A stretch of DNA of 51,470 bases from positions 1-51,470 of the IMG/VR virus record IMGVR_UViG_3300050821_023966; one strand, 5' to 3'. The translations under genes and the position numbers were made by a program. The notes below the pieces were generated by a model. That model saw nothing but the letters and a program-made list of their open reading frames with translations. It was not told where the DNA came from and did not search any database. This stretch comes from a virus. Below, one piece after another: positions 1,889 through 36,720 of the stretch (within the stretch, counting starts at the first letter, position 1; every line of letters starts with the position of its first letter).

Positions 1889-2133
1889 TGTTTCCTACTA
1901 CCGTCATCAAATGCTGATTGAGTTGCCCTAGTCATTTTTATTAAATCATTTAAATCGATCCTATATCTATCAATAGTATATGACTCAATTGCTCCAAGCA
2001 AATCGCTCAATTCGATCAATTCCATTACACGATTACCTTGCCTATTGGCGTCAATAAATTCCTCATATTCTTCTTGTATTTTGGAAGGAAATCCCAAGAT
2101 TCCCTTATTTATTTTATTTATATGATATCCCAT
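1879..2133 (-). CDS. MazG-like nucleotide pyrophosphohydrolase
   Basis: 84 aa. The segment KIQEEYEEFIDANRQ (residues 18-32) followed by ELSDLLGAIESY (42-53) matches the EExxE...ExxDxx metal-binding helices of the all-alpha NTP pyrophosphatase (MazG/dUTPase-2) superfamily. Members hydrolyse (d)NTPs to NMPs; the phage substrate cannot be told. Lies between the aaRS-like and Cys-rich genes and overlaps both. Confidence 0.72.
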   Translation of the reverse strand: MGYHINKINKGILGFPSKIQEEYEEFIDANRQGNRVMELIELSDLLGAIESYTIDRYRIDLNDLIKMTRATQSAFDDGSRKQCI

Positions 2134-2755
2134 ATGTTTCTAATAATCTACTTAATCTAGGTTCGGCCACACCAGTTCCATAAATCCATTTAAGGAAATT
2201 ACAATGTCTTATACCATAGCTACCGAGTTCTACCCCTCGATACATTAAATCATATGACGGATATAGATATGCATCATTAACATTAACTTCGGCAATCTTT
2301 TCAAATCCATCCCAAATATATACATCATCTTTTTCATCTACACCTGATATCCATGAATCATTAACTTTTGGTAATAAGCAATACTTTCTAAAGAAATCTC
2401 TAGCCGAATGAATAACATTCCTCAACTGTTCCTTACTTACATCATCCGTGATTATTAATTCATTTTTGATAAAATATTTAGTATGCCACACATCAAATGT
2501 TTCATCCCTGAAGCACGGAGTTGTTGTCTGAAACTTCCCTTTTGGTAGAAATCCCTTATTATATAGATATAAAAACGATTGTTCCCCACTTGCCACCAAC
2601 ACCTTGGATTTTTCGGAAATTGAAAAATTAGGAATTCCCTCTGGTTTCGTTATGTCCGAAATATCTTTGGTGACTGTCCAAGGAGACTCGATTCTCGAAA
2701 ATCCACACTTCTCGTAGTATTTAACGGATTCAGCAATTATATTATAATCAATCAT
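2114..2755 (-). CDS. Minimal class II aminoacyl-tRNA-synthetase-like protein
   Basis: 213 aa. All three class II signatures are visible in order: a motif-1-like GFSRIESPWTV (residues ~18-28), motif 2 CFRDE followed by WHTKYFIKNEL (~82-100), and motif 3 YGTGVAEPRLSRLLE (~192-206) with its conserved Arg. No anticodon-binding domain is present. Relatives with only a catalytic core include asparagine synthetase A, HisZ and EpmA, so it may charge something other than tRNA. It overlaps the dCMP deaminase stop (ATGA). The tRNA-rich context makes a tRNA-related role attractive but unproven. Confidence 0.78.
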   Translation of the reverse strand: MIDYNIIAESVKYYEKCGFSRIESPWTVTKDISDITKPEGIPNFSISEKSKVLVASGEQSFLYLYNKGFLPKGKFQTTTPCFRDETFDVWHTKYFIKNELIITDDVSKEQLRNVIHSARDFFRKYCLLPKVNDSWISGVDEKDDVYIWDGFEKIAEVNVNDAYLYPSYDLMYRGVELGSYGIRHCNFLKWIYGTGVAEPRLSRLLETYGISYK

Positions 2756-3544: not shown

Positions 3545-4591
3545 TTAATGGATTTCACATAAGTGTTCCAATAGTCTATCACTAAATCGCATAGAATTTA
3601 TCAGCCTGAGATTACAGCTTCAATGTCAACCTTTTGTTACATTATACCTATCTTGCGGACAGGCTTCTTAACTTATCCACTAATACGCTTGCGCTATACT
3701 AGTATTTGACACGACTGCTTTTTTAGAGTTGTAGCTTTTCAACTTTAACATCAGAATATTCTACCTTTATCCATCCGTCTACCATCGCTGGCAGTTAAGG
3801 CTTGCGGGCCACCGTTCAGACTCCGATAAACAACTACATCCTTGCGAGATTTCATTGCCTGTATTACCTTGCGGCTACAGAATTAAGTCACTTTCATCTG
3901 ACATAAGCACCGACTTTGCTTTTTTATGTGATAGTTGGTTTGACCCAACAACCTATTGTTTAATATACAATTGCTCTACCATGAGCTATATCGAACTTAA
4001 CGATGACGTGCGGTGCTTGTGGTTTCATTATCTTTTGGATAACAATATGCCACACACCATCTGAGTTTCTCTTGCGGATACTTCTCCGAATTTCAAGATT
4101 ATGTGCCTTGGTTGCCTTCTAGCCCACTCTCTATCATTCTACATATAAACTCTTGATTGCGGTCTTGAATCTATACGTTTAGCTTAATCCTTAACCTTAA
4201 ATGTTTTGCTGTGCCAGAGGATAGTCGGCTAAACTACCTAGAATACTTACAGTGTTACCCTCAGTACTCATTTAACACCATCTTCAGATATACCACCACC
4301 TTTTGAGTGATAGATAACGGATTTGCTGGTTGCTTGAGTGTCCTAATATTGCTACTAGGCGCAGATCGGTTAAGCGATTACTGCTTTCATAACCATTGCT
4401 GGTTACTATCTTATGGAGATCAAGCTCCCCAAATTCATCTAACAAAGATCAATGGTTTAATTCCTGTTTTCACACCATAAGTTCGATAACGCACAGAAAC
4501 TGCGATCAGTCATTATATTCGCCGTTCGTCAGACTGATAATTGAGAACGTGCCATTCAGTTTACTAGGAACTGACACCCAAATCCAACTGT
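3545..4591 (-). ncRNA. Large structured non-coding RNA (~1 kb), GOLLD/ROOL-like class suspected
   Basis: A ~1,050-nt stretch with no sustained reading frame sits behind a consensus promoter (4598-4625) on the minus strand. The RNA has at least six stem-loops capped by GCAA (sequences CCGCAAG or GCGCAAGC), many other hairpins, and a tRNA-like domain (3930-3992). Its 3' end carries a possible hairpin (GGAACAC/GTGAAATCC around 3549-3568). Giant ornate RNAs such as GOLLD and ROOL are known from phages and often lie near tRNA arrays, as here. Family assignment is inference from size, structure and context. Confidence 0.7.
3930..3992 (-). ncRNA. tRNA-like domain inside the large RNA
   Basis: Read on the minus strand: a 4-bp closing stem GATA/TATC, a D-arm-like GCTC-ATGGTA-GAGC, an anticodon-arm-like ATTGT-ATATTAA-ACAAT (ATT at positions 34-36, T at 33), and a T-arm-like GTTGG/CCAAC stem with a 6-nt loop. 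No CCA end and only a 4-bp acceptor, so it is not an ordinary tRNA gene. Confidence 0.55.
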
Positions 4592-4597
4592 TTATAT

Positions 4598-4625
4598 ATT
4601 ATATCAGACTTTTGTCCGATGTCAA
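4598..4625 (-). promoter_or_regulatory. Promoter of the large RNA, with dyad spacer
   Basis: TTGACA (4625-4620), 16-nt spacer, TATAAT (4603-4598) with an extended -10 TGA. The spacer is an imperfect inverted repeat TCGGAC-AAAA-GTCTGA, a possible operator. Confidence 0.85.
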
Positions 4626-4745: not shown

Positions 4746-4773
4746 ATTATATCACCGATTCAATCAATGTCAA
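4746..4773 (-). promoter_or_regulatory. Sigma70-type promoter abutting an ATG
   Basis: TTGACA (4773-4768), N16, TATAAT (4751-4746), extended -10 TGA. The -35 overlaps the end of the TrpC-like gene. The -10 touches the ATG at 4745. Confidence 0.75.
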
Positions 4774-5407
4774 CTAGTTTCCCACAAAAATCTATCAAAT
4801 TTGTTCCAACTATGTATCCAAACACATATGGATTAACCTGACTAATATCGGATATATTACTGGCTTGTATTACTTTTCCACACTTTTTAATATATTTATC
4901 TAATTCAGATATCGTGTGCTGCTTTCCAGTTAACAAGTCTCTTGAATTACACACTACTGTATTTTCCATTAAAAATTTATTCCATTTTGTCTTATGGAGA
5001 TTATCCATGTAATCATAACTTTGTTTGTCACCAACCGACAAAAACGCTTCATATGATTTTCTCTTATCGTCAGGTAATTCAATGTTTGATAATTCAAAAA
5101 TGCAACGACTGGCCAGATATTCAGATTTCGGTACTCTATCGACTGATAATACAAAATCCGCCCCATGATACAATGCCGTTTGAACTGCTTCGTCGGAACC
5201 ATGTAAACCTTTTGCTAAAATAGGTTTATCTGTGAACTTCCTAACGTATGATATGGTATCAAAATCACCACCCCATAACGCATTAGTATGAACCGATATC
5301 CAATCCCCATAATTAATAGCATATTCCATTAATTTTGAAAAAGTGTATTTGGATTCATAACCAAATGGTGATTTGGTCTTTATTTCCGCTATAAAAATTG
5401 GTTTCAT
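4760..5407 (-). CDS. Indole-3-glycerol-phosphate synthase-like TIM-barrel protein
   Basis: 215 aa. IAEIKTKSPFG at residues 6-16 matches the TrpC IAEIKRxSPS strand 1. GDWISVHTNALWGGDFDTI resembles the TrpC strand-2 region (ISVLTExxFFGG), KPILAKGL the strand-3 region, GADFVLSV the strand-4 region, and NSRDLLT the conserved N(N/S)RDL. It is shorter than full TrpC (~255 aa), lacking the N-terminal extension. TrpC closes the indole ring in tryptophan synthesis; activity here is uncertain. Confidence 0.7.
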   Translation of the reverse strand: MKPIFIAEIKTKSPFGYESKYTFSKLMEYAINYGDWISVHTNALWGGDFDTISYVRKFTDKPILAKGLHGSDEAVQTALYHGADFVLSVDRVPKSEYLASRCIFELSNIELPDDKRKSYEAFLSVGDKQSYDYMDNLHKTKWNKFLMENTVVCNSRDLLTGKQHTISELDKYIKKCGKVIQASNISDISQVNPYVFGYIVGTNLIDFCGKLVDID

Positions 5408-19697: not shown

Positions 19698-20429
19698 TTA
19701 TCCACAGATTTCAAACCATCTTGATGATAACATTTCAGAATACCATATATGGTATAATCCATAATTCCCCAGACTGGTCGCATCATTAAATTCAACCAAT
19801 GTAGTTTTTCCATCATCGGTGACACCAAAATCCAAAGCATATGCACAAGGAGCCTTAGACCCAAATTCCTTTATGGCTTCCTTGATCACCCCAATATCAG
19901 GAGTTTTTGTCCAGTTTCCACGGTAATGTTTACCTTCCAATATCTCCGTATCTTGAATATAGATTCGAAATTCTGACTCGAAATTAACAATACTGGACAA
20001 ATATACTTCCACGGCATCATCCACATTACCTAACTGAATCCAATCCAATATGGATCGTATTTGCAATCCATTAAATTTCTTCTGGTGAATTGGCTTCATA
20101 AATTTCTTTTGTGGCCATGATTCCCATTCCTTTCTTACCTGACCAATCGTTGATTTCTCGATTGAGCGATTCATAAAACCATACAACTCCTCGGGATAAG
20201 TGTCAATCTTATTATATGTTACTCCAAGTTTTTGTATAATTTTATCAAATATCGTGACGCCAGCGAATACAGGAGTACCACGAGTACAACTCATCCAGAA
20301 AGAAGGATCATCCAATTCTTCTTCCTCGAACTTTATAACATCATAATTGGTGTCAACCCAACCCTTCCAAGCTAAATAAAAATTCGGATTGGGGAAATTA
20401 CCTTTAGTTGTTTTTACGAAAGCGTTCAT
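19698..20429 (-). CDS. ATP-grasp (R2K-type) protein (243 aa)
   Basis: The C-terminal half EFRIYIQDTEILEGKHYRG...APCAYALDFGVTDDGKTTLVEFNDATSLGNYGL contains the ATP-grasp metal triad pattern (D...E-x-N). R2K-clade ATP-grasp proteins are frequent in phages; they are predicted carboxylate-amine ligases modifying proteins or metabolites. Overlaps the next gene by 4 nt. Confidence 0.75.
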   Translation of the reverse strand: MNAFVKTTKGNFPNPNFYLAWKGWVDTNYDVIKFEEEELDDPSFWMSCTRGTPVFAGVTIFDKIIQKLGVTYNKIDTYPEELYGFMNRSIEKSTIGQVRKEWESWPQKKFMKPIHQKKFNGLQIRSILDWIQLGNVDDAVEVYLSSIVNFESEFRIYIQDTEILEGKHYRGNWTKTPDIGVIKEAIKEFGSKAPCAYALDFGVTDDGKTTLVEFNDATSLGNYGLYHIWYSEMLSSRWFEICG

Positions 20430-20695
20430 AACTTATATTTCTCTTGCAATTTTCTGATTTCTCTCATCAAAGCATTCTCTTCTGAAGTAGGCTCATAAAA
20501 TTTATATGGATAGCTATTAGCATATGGATATCTATTAAATACAGCATACTCTTTTAATAATTGAGTTAATGCCGCAAGATAGGCATCTTCATTTTTCATA
20601 ATAAGTTCATATGCATCTTTATATGCACGATCATAAACCTCCTTTTCATTGAATTTGATCTTATTATATTCTTCTTCGGTCAAAGTTATTATCAT
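20426..20695 (-). CDS. Hypothetical protein (89 aa)
   Basis: Charged helical protein (MIITLTEEEYNKIKFNEKEV). Sits between the ATP-grasp and CoaD-CoaE genes with 4-nt overlaps on both sides. Unknown. Confidence 0.65.
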   Translation of the reverse strand: MIITLTEEEYNKIKFNEKEVYDRAYKDAYELIMKNEDAYLAALTQLLKEYAVFNRYPYANSYPYKFYEPTSEENALMREIRKLQEKYKL

Positions 20696-21879
20696 ACAAA
20701 TATTGATTTAAATAAAAATGAATCTTTTAATTTTTCATTCAGTTCGATTGATTTAGCTTCATCTGTTGGAGAATCATGTACTGGATCGCCAACATCATTA
20801 TTAATAACATGTAGTGCTCCATTATTATCCTTTACCATAGCCAATATCATAAATGCTTTTCGTGCATCATTTGACATCTGTGAATTTATTCTTTTCACGG
20901 ATTCCTCTGGTGAATAGCCTCTGGATTTTAATCTAGCTAACACGGTTTCCTTACTACTATCAACAATAATCACATTATTATTACATAGATAAGTCATGTC
21001 ACCATCAACTAACAATGCTCCATTCAACAATATTAATCCAGATTTACCAGCAATTTTCTTACGCATTTCTCGAATCATGACTGGTTTATACAATTCTAAT
21101 AAAGTAGCATTGAATTTAGGATCATTAAATACACGTTCAGCCAATCTACTTTTCACAATTGATGGGAATTGATCAGCATCATTGCCCATTAACATCTTTT
21201 GAACAGTGCTTCTCAATTCCATTACTTCATGATTGTTCTGCCATGAATATTTATCAGAATAAGTGATTTCATTGGATATTACATCAAAATCTACATTTGT
21301 CACTGGTACACCTGAACTCACCCCGAATTTGGATAACAAGTTGGCAATATACGATTTGCCACACCCAATGCCGCCAGTCAATCCAACAATATATTGTTTA
21401 TTCTGGCGAATCTCAAGCATCTGTTTCGTGTATAACGGAACATAATCACGAACATCAGCATTATATTTAATCAACTCTTTGACGGCTGACGAACTAATCT
21501 TTTGATCTTTTGGATCGGAAAATAATACAAACGTGTCAATACCGTTCTCCTGAGACACGGTAACTTCATGTAACATTTTCTCATATTCCGTATCTTGGAT
21601 ATTTCTAATCCCTTTCAAAACAGATGTAATACCATGTTCCCTAGCAAAATCACTTACTAAACTAGTGTCTGGTAAAATGTGAACACTGACACTGTCATTG
21701 TTCGCAAACATCTTATGTATGATCTTAATACGTTCATCTATATTAAACAAATACTTCTTATTAGGATTATTTGCCACCAATATATAAACATGATCAAACG
21801 CTTTTAATGCACGATTGACAATATTAGCATGACCATTGTGAAAACAGTCAAAACTACCAGCATAAATACAGCTTTTCAT
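20692..21879 (-). CDS. Bifunctional CoaD-CoaE fusion (395 aa)
   Basis: Residues 1-~155 are phosphopantetheine adenylyltransferase: GSFDCFHNGHANI (TxGH-type nucleotidyltransferase motif), KGIRNIQDTEYE (family RGLRxxxDFEYE) and ISSSAVKEL. Residues ~160-395 are dephospho-CoA kinase: P-loop GLTGGIGCGKS, DFDVI, and VKRINSQM. Together they would run the last two steps of coenzyme A synthesis, 4'-phosphopantetheine to CoA, in the cytoplasm. The same order occurs in animal CoA synthase; bacteria usually encode separate enzymes. Overlaps the NADAR gene by 4 nt. Confidence 0.88.
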   Translation of the reverse strand: MKSCIYAGSFDCFHNGHANIVNRALKAFDHVYILVANNPNKKYLFNIDERIKIIHKMFANNDSVSVHILPDTSLVSDFAREHGITSVLKGIRNIQDTEYEKMLHEVTVSQENGIDTFVLFSDPKDQKISSSAVKELIKYNADVRDYVPLYTKQMLEIRQNKQYIVGLTGGIGCGKSYIANLLSKFGVSSGVPVTNVDFDVISNEITYSDKYSWQNNHEVMELRSTVQKMLMGNDADQFPSIVKSRLAERVFNDPKFNATLLELYKPVMIREMRKKIAGKSGLILLNGALLVDGDMTYLCNNNVIIVDSSKETVLARLKSRGYSPEESVKRINSQMSNDARKAFMILAMVKDNNGALHVINNDVGDPVHDSPTDEAKSIELNEKLKDSFLFKSIFV

Positions 21880-24630: not shown

Positions 24631-25011
24631 TGGTGGACTGAACGGGATTCGAACCCGTGTGTTAGCTAAAACAATACGAATGACTACGTGTGTATTCACT
24701 TTAAGTTTACTCATGATGATGATTAAATGTGTCCAAAACACCATCCGTGAGATTTGTTAAATTTCGATCTATAACCCAAATCATTGTTATATCTCTAGTC
24801 CAATTTTTAACGCAGTTGATAACTATCAGACTTCACTACCAATCTACGGGTAACCTATTAGGCTACAGCAACTTCGTCCATCTCTGGAACAAAGTCATAT
24901 GCTTCAATGTTTTCAGCATTTGATTTTCGAATGAATTTTAAAGTAGCCTTTCATTCAACTACTACACGCCATCCTATACTAATTCTATCTAGTCGATGCC
25001 AGTATCAGCCC
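24631..25011 (-). ncRNA. ssrA: tmRNA (transfer-messenger RNA)
   Basis: 5' end GGGCTGATACTGGCATCGAC matches the conserved tmRNA start (GGGGCTGATTCTGGATTCGAC). It pairs 7 of 7 with the 3' acceptor TCAGTCC, then A and encoded CCA. T arm CGGG-TTCGAAT-CCCG. An internal tag frame (24858-24917) encodes about AENIEAYDFVPEMDEVAVA followed by tandem stops TAA TAG. Length 381 nt is typical. A TTGACT-N16-TATAAT promoter lies just upstream. It would rescue stalled ribosomes and tag the nascent peptide. The exact resume codon (GCT proposed) is uncertain. Confidence 0.92.
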
Positions 25012-36277: not shown

Positions 36278-36301
36278 AAAACAACAAAAATATGTTGTTT
36301 T
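36278..36301. terminator. Hairpin, probable terminator
   Basis: AAAACAAC/GTTGTTTT, 8-bp stem with T/A tracts, just upstream of the HNH gene. Confidence 0.6.
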
Positions 36302-36309
36302 ATTTTAAA

Positions 36310-36385
36310 TGGCTCCATCCCTCTGATTTGAACAGAGATAGTACAAATTAACAGTTTGTCTCATTACCAATTATGATAGAATGGA
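36310..36385 (-). tRNA. tRNA-Asn(GTT), copy 2
   Basis: Acceptor TCCATTC/GGATGGA, anticodon arm ACAAA-CTGTTAA-TTTGT, normal variable loop, G73, CCA encoded. Confidence 0.92.
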
Positions 36386-36396
36386 ATTAAATTAAA

Positions 36397-36556
36397 TGGT
36401 GGGGACAGCAGGATTTAAACCTGCGGTGTTTGTCATAACTTCGTTAAACAACTTACGATCTTATACTAGTTTATCTCGCTGCCGTTGCTTAATTACTATA
36501 TGATTCTTGTGGCCTTATTCATGCCACTGACTTTCGTCTCTCTTGTCTACATCCCC
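36397..36556 (-). tRNA. Oversized tRNA-like gene 7 (160 nt), Phe-like
   Basis: Acceptor GGGGATG/TGTCCCC (7 of 7 with two G-T), D stem GAC/GTC, anticodon-like arm GTGGC-ATGAATAAG-GCCAC (9-nt loop containing GAA after T), T arm GCAGG-TTTAAAT-CCTGC, CCA encoded. About 80 extra nt lie between the anticodon-like and T arms. Confidence 0.55.
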
Positions 36557-36562
36557 GTAAAA

Positions 36563-36638
36563 TGGAAGTGCTGGTGGGAATCGAACCCGACGTAGCTAAT
36601 TTGAAGGACTAGCGAATCTACCAATATTCTACAGCACC
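36563..36638 (-). tRNA. tRNA-Glu(TTC)-like with C33
   Basis: Acceptor GGTGCTG/CAGCACT, anticodon stem CTAGT/ATTAG with loop CCTTCAA, CCA encoded. Position 33 is C. Confidence 0.72.
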
Positions 36639-36646
36639 GTTAAAAA

Positions 36647-36720
36647 TGGTGTTCCTATGGAGAATCGAACTCCAGCACTTTGGGTGAAAACCAAAGGTTC
36701 TGCCATTAAACTATAGGAAC
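36647..36720 (-). tRNA. tRNA-Glu(TTC)
   Basis: Acceptor GTTCCTA/TAGGAAC, anticodon arm TTTGG-TTTTCAC-CCAAA, CCA encoded. Confidence 0.92.

Follow-up and report, generated by a model that had tools for sequence, protein, structure and literature searches.

A probable phage GOLLD RNA with a shortened tRNA look-alike in its linker

GOLLD RNA was reportedly presented by Weinberg in 2009. A tRNA-mimic module that is not used for decoding is found in another non-coding RNA, the bacterial Y RNA YrlA; a tRNA-like module is common to YrlA and the GOLLD described here, while the RNA and the host context differ. In GOLLD the 3′ region is conserved and the 5′ domain variable, and the Rfam model covers the 3′ region only; expression that rises during lysis is a further mark of the family. 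Cryo-EM has revealed GOLLD env-38 as a 14-mer RNA cage (PMC12286853), and tRNAs in GOLLD linkers have already been reported (PMC12286853, PMC6582537). In mycobacteria, a GOLLD containing a tRNA-like gene was described from a tRNA cluster of horizontal origin, and that gene was treated as one pseudogene (Behra 2019, PMC6582537). ROOL is likewise a phage RNA cage found near tRNA islands and has a lumen-facing variable linker, but its sequence and secondary structure are unrelated to those of GOLLD (PMC12286853). For one Lactobacillus prophage, GOLLD was dispensable for production (PMC7567579).

We analysed positions 3545-4625 of the virus record IMGVR_UViG_3300050821_023966, whose whole 51,470-nt stretch is referred to here as the window. 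A first-pass annotation had described this region as a structured RNA with its own promoter and an embedded tRNA-like domain, and had placed it as a member or relative of GOLLD or ROOL or as a new class. A covariance-model search of the window, which that annotation had suggested as a check, returned Rfam GOLLD (RF02032) at 3603-4062 on the minus strand with 217.7 bits (E 2.4e-60; gathering score 150). The match spans the whole model, positions 1-416, which establishes membership in GOLLD and rules out a new RNA class. In the same Rfam search, neither ROOL nor Y RNA had a match in the window. The features of the locus are as follows.

4598..4625, minus strand: sigma70-type promoter TTGACA-N16-TATAAT with TG before the -10 (12/12; start expected near 4590)
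4063..4591, minus strand: GOLLD 5′ domain, variable and family-specific (homology to L147, RNAalifold covariation)
4246-4262, minus strand: 17-nt conserved block GAGGGTAACACTGTAAG in the GOLLD 5′ domain
3603..4062, minus strand: GOLLD conserved 3′ region, RF02032 positions 1-416 (covariance-model match)
3930..3992, minus strand: tRNA-like domain in the GOLLD linker (RF00005 match, descriptor score)
3912..3925, minus strand: conserved GOLLD core element AAAAAAGCAAAGUC, directly after the linker (aligned to the Rfam consensus)
3545..3602, minus strand: 3′ flank element GAUAGAC...GGAAC...UGUGAAAUCC (kept in the closest relatives, L147 and L190)

The locus shares with the RF02032 family the full-length match of the 3′ region, a variable 5′ domain, a phage setting near a tRNA array, usual for GOLLD (46 tRNAs and a tmRNA in this viral window, the neighbourhood that the annotation had named for such giant RNAs) and a linker flanked by the same core elements, the place where tRNAs had already been noted. 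It differs in its 5′ domain, a subtype common to L147, L389 and L391, and in its linker, which is short and disordered in env-38 and here is an acceptor-shortened tRNA-like domain. When 3545-4625 was examined on both strands, the signal lay on the minus strand. The predicted fold energy has a z of -2.1 and beats 20/20 shuffles. A coding gene on either strand was rejected: open frames in 3545-4592 reach at most 109 codons, whichever strand is read, within the range of dinucleotide shuffles (median 80, 95th percentile 122); the annotation had described ~1,050 nt as free of a coding frame. The six or more GCAA-capped hairpins of the first-pass annotation correspond to six CGCAAG loops on the minus strand (3652, 3688, 3801, 3841, 3868 and 4071; the whole window has 13 CGCAAG) and, near 4399 and 4352, two 7-bp stems closed by perfect GCAA tetraloops; the count is borne out, but "GCAA-capped" is loose, most of these being CGCAA loops.

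The consensus promoter that had been proposed is present at 4625-4598 (-). Another perfect TTGACA-N16-TATAAT site, at 4773-4746 (-), abuts the ATG of a 48-aa frame. In the window there are seven perfect TTGACA-N15-18-TATAAT sites, all on the minus strand (expected 0.23), and TTGACA is present at the equivalent upstream place in L147, L389 and L391. A GOLLD of ~1 kb would thus be transcribed from its own sigma70-type promoter, as judged from the promoter sequence. From this promoter to the GOLLD 3′ end is about 990 nt, in the range above 800 nt that GOLLD RNAs have in total. In L147 and L190, conservation of the 3′ flank extends to about 3550, and a pattern search of this flank detected no canonical terminator after GOLLD. 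The proposed boundaries therefore hold, with the promoter at the 5′ end, the GOLLD 3′ end at 3603 and the conserved flank beyond it.

By the GOLLD 3′ region, the closest relatives are L147 (80%) and L190, and the upstream ~530 nt, the 5′ domain, are homologous to L147 (71% over 370 nt). No named phage closely related to the window itself by DNA was found; such phages were found only for other members of the clade. Comparative folding of the window with L147, L389 and L391 gave a consensus fold of the whole RNA with 213 pairs, 94 of them with both partners changed in one or more sequences (RNAalifold), and no failure to keep pairs was seen; with four sequences and a predicted structure, this is support rather than proof. 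We conclude from these sequence comparisons that the ~1-kb RNA at 3545-4625 is very probably a phage GOLLD with a tRNA-like linker, in both identity and anatomy.

Other genes of the window were noted in passing. Two genes downstream of GOLLD, a 213-aa protein (2114-2755, minus strand) matches phrog_4806 "histidyl tRNA synthetase" (E 3e-35) and has no Pfam match. A phage tmRNA with the tag AENIEAYDFVPEMDEVAVA lies at 24631-25011 (-) among the 46 tRNAs. The phage also encodes a fused cytidylyltransferase-like/CoaE protein (20692-21879, minus strand) and an IGPS-like protein (4760-5407, minus strand).

The internal tRNA-like fold seen in the first pass is recognized by the Rfam tRNA model (RF00005), which matches inside the linker at 3926-3995 (-) with 43.5 bits (E 1.3e-7), and the tRNA descriptor scores 43 against a shuffle maximum of 29. 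ARAGORN makes no tRNA call for this domain. The D arm is GCUC-AUGGUA-GAGC with a 6-nt loop, the anticodon arm AUUGU-AUAUUAA-ACAAU with the anticodon AUU, and the T arm GUUGG-GUCAAA-CCAAC, with a 6-nt loop instead of the 7-nt TTCRANN. The acceptor has 4 bp, GAUA/UAUC (3989-3992 with 3930-3933): only pairs 4-69 to 7-66 are contiguous, and 2-71 (U-C) and 3-70 (C-A) are broken. CCA is absent, whereas it is encoded in 41/46 free tRNAs of the window. Thus the domain has the model match of a functional tRNA and lacks its 7-bp acceptor, CCA and 7-nt T-loop. The phage already encodes two tRNA-Asn(GUU). Fresh capture of a neighbouring tRNA was considered and rejected, the best identity to the window's own tRNAs being 71%. 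The domain in the linker resembles a tRNA in shortened form and is not likely to be charged with an amino acid.

Relatives were searched for with the core element AAAAAAGCAAAGUC as anchor. A GOLLD-only pattern scan of IMG/VR gave more than 119 loci, and 40/40 tested match RF02032 (39/40 over the cut-off). Prevalence was determined from a scan without a tRNA term; of the 71 distinct linkers that it found in front of AANGCAAAGNC, 51 reach the strict tRNA descriptor threshold (>=42), and the highest score among 710 shuffles is 30. Independently, Rfam places an RF00005 match within RF02032 for most of the loci sampled; L246 and L248 have none. A relaxed descriptor yielded 77 non-redundant tRNA-like domains for comparison; the T-loop scan selects for T-loops, and we claim no T-loop conservation from it. 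Acceptor pairs 4-69 to 7-66 are formed in 92-97% of the 77 domains, against 48-61% with shuffled partners (z about 9-11), although the 92-97% is somewhat inflated because the descriptor favours paired inner acceptor positions; these inner four pairs show many pair types and compensatory changes. At the outer positions, which are unselected, pairs 1-72, 2-71 and 3-70 are at the shuffled level (0.45/0.48, 0.51/0.55 and 0.59/0.59) in the 51 domains of the main (AGGTT) clade. A separate alignment of 13 diverse linkers shows the inner four acceptor pairs, with compensatory changes, and the D, anticodon and T stems paired in 13/13; 2-71 is broken in 9/13 and 3-70 in 8/13. Some linker domains align to the Rfam tRNA model only at positions 4-67 or 3-68. 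CCA is encoded in 1/81 ARAGORN-called linker domains versus 92% of 762 free tRNAs from the same loci, the 762 being a clean subset, chosen because in redundant loci some linkers had been counted among the "free" tRNAs.

A minority of linkers have longer acceptors: L144 and L206 (7 bp), and L278 and L393, which also encode CCA. Some GOLLD linkers may therefore hold true tRNAs. Of 12 pattern matches in bacterial chromosomes, one, L393 (in the assembly of Gammaproteobacteria bacterium 45_16_T64), is clearly a GOLLD linker that holds a tRNA, and most others were clearly chance. The module is looser in the subclade to which the window belongs (D- and T-loops of 6 nt), and it is gone from L391; about 10 members of the wider clade also do without it, which makes it dispensable. 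One phage contig, L038 (IMGVR_UViG_3300042869_000878), carries two GOLLDs, at 19736-20149 and 36280-36673, both above 310 bits. At L087:13550-13690 (-), a GOLLD linker (RF02032 E 6e-40, below gathering) apparently holds a circularly permuted tRNA with a 7-bp acceptor, in the order T arm, acceptor 3′ strand, GCCA, 26-nt spacer, acceptor 5′ strand, D arm and anticodon arm. A scan for further circularly permuted linker tRNAs found none, with a pattern that would miss L087's own flank; as a common theme they were rejected, L087 being the one clear case.

All 63 linker domains compared (63/63) are closer to another phage's linker domain than to tRNAs of their own locus, which argues that the module is inherited with GOLLD; median identities over all domains are 0.84 to linker domains and 0.68 to own-locus tRNAs. 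A tree of the 3′ region requires at least 7 changes to explain where the domain occurs and 43 to explain its anticodons. NUU anticodons occur in 40/71 linkers (56%) versus 7.9% of free tRNAs (Fisher p 5e-22, a value without phylogeny correction). Linkers also differ between near-identical GOLLDs: L123/L261 and L204/L208 have identical 3′ regions and linkers that are 69% identical, and in L173/L277 and L143/L230 both flanks are 92-98% identical and the linkers 75-81%. These comparisons look as if linkers were replaced like cassettes, by recombination.

GOLLD with the module is also present in the Caulobacter phages phiCbK, Magneto, Karma, Swift, Ccr10, Ccr29 and BL57, in Phaeobacter phage MD18, in DSS3_MAL1 and in Mesorhizobium phage Cp1R7A-A1. 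In these named phages it is annotated as tRNA-Lys, -Gly, -Arg or -Leu (tRNA-Lys or tRNA-Gly in the phiCbK-like phages). Across linker and 3′ region, seven phiCbK-like phages vary in 8 of 465 columns, and five of the eight lie in the 7-nt anticodon loop; the associated p = 7e-9 overstates this, as the five changes are consecutive and maybe one event. The loops read CUCUUAA versus CGUCCUA or CAUCCUA, and because the latter two are without U33, the tRNA-Gly label is doubtful. In L405, L410, L406, L407 and L409, which are Caulobacter and Roseobacter-group phages, GOLLD has a permuted tmRNA (RF04321) as a neighbour, no more than about 1.5 kb away.

How might such a module be used? By homology to the env-38 14-mer, GOLLD would self-assemble into an RNA nanocage, and the env-38 structure would place the linker, with its tRNA-like module, inside the cage. 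The module has the D, T and anticodon arms and the inner four acceptor pairs, without the outer pairs and CCA. The substrate rules of RNase P, CCA addition and synthetases disfavour excision or charging of such a short-acceptor module. With a short acceptor and no CCA, it should therefore escape these steps and would stay in GOLLD, without pre-tRNA-type excision, CCA addition or aminoacylation. Many copies of the mimic could then use elbow and anticodon loop to bind a host factor that reads tRNAs; an anticodon nuclease, a synthetase or a modifying enzyme would be candidates. It is possible, and we propose it tentatively, that the cage displays an uncleavable, unchargeable tRNA mimic as bait for an anticodon-reading host factor. 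We are somewhat more hesitant about the extension to a large GOLLD clade, in which diversifying selection would act on the anticodon loop of a dedicated acceptor-shortened mimic in the nanocage, a decoy against host enzymes that cleave or read tRNAs, and the "tRNA-Lys/Gly/Arg/Leu" annotated there, phiCbK included, would not be tRNAs.

The main rival to the bait proposal is that the module is an inert filler of the lumen, a compact, pre-evolved fold that spaces GOLLD segments or aids folding and binds nothing. This is a possibility that we hold tentatively as well: the module sits at one fixed place between core elements, its sequence varies freely around a constant shape, and in most other GOLLDs an A/T-rich sequence occupies the linker. 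An inert filler leaves unexplained the conserved elbow loops (D-loop GG and TTCRA T-loops, in a set partly selected for these), the NUU skew and the anticodon-loop turnover in phiCbK-like phages. The module could also be a decaying pseudo-tRNA, a tRNA gene that jumped into the linker and is now drifting. The 6-nt D- and T-loops of the window, the disappearance of the module from L391 and others, and a mycobacterial GOLLD "pseudo tRNA" without detectable expression (PMC6582537) fit decay; this reading is weakened by covariation, since the four stems show compensatory changes across diverse domains, and by the separate lineage of the linker domains, which are not fresh captures from arrays (63/63), and we consider it unlikely.

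Two further explanations were weighed. If it docked GOLLD on ribosomes or translation factors, instead of a defence or processing enzyme, the retained elbow and anticodon arm would make sense, as would a ribosome pull-down by GOLLD that is cited in a passage of PMC12286853; the loops without U33 and the missing acceptor end speak against use in a decoding site, and some GOLLDs exist without the module, which leaves docking rather improbable. Least probable is a precursor role for GOLLD, with a functional tRNA released from it or carried by it. A published sketch shows linker tRNAs exposed once the cage opens (PMC12286853), and a few linkers do have long acceptors, with CCA in L278 and L393. 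Against this reading stand the rarity of CCA in linkers (just 1/81), the phiCbK loop CGUCCUA without U33 and the window's own linker, with a 4-bp acceptor, no CCA and A34 in the anticodon, in a phage that has two tRNA-Asn(GUU).

Compared with the single pseudogene of the mycobacterial GOLLD (PMC6582537), the module here recurs across many phage lineages with covarying stems. In the GOLLD literature covered here, neither the short acceptor and its recurrence nor the skew in anticodons and the turnover is described; we claim no priority, and the short acceptor may have been mentioned earlier, for example in Weinberg 2009 or Morgado 2020. A caution for annotation is that tRNA finders report GOLLD linkers among phage tRNAs. 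ARAGORN calls tRNA-Pyl(CUA) or tRNA-Stop(UUA) for the linkers of L025, L276 and L240; these false suppressor-tRNA calls, amber ones in L025 and L276 among them, bear on recoded-phage surveys. For the role of GOLLD cages, a recurring mimic in the lumen linker would be a concrete clue, pointing to a reader of the tRNA elbow and anticodon rather than of the acceptor end. Caulobacter crescentus is a laboratory system, and its phiCbK-like phages have the same module, so this role could be tested there directly.
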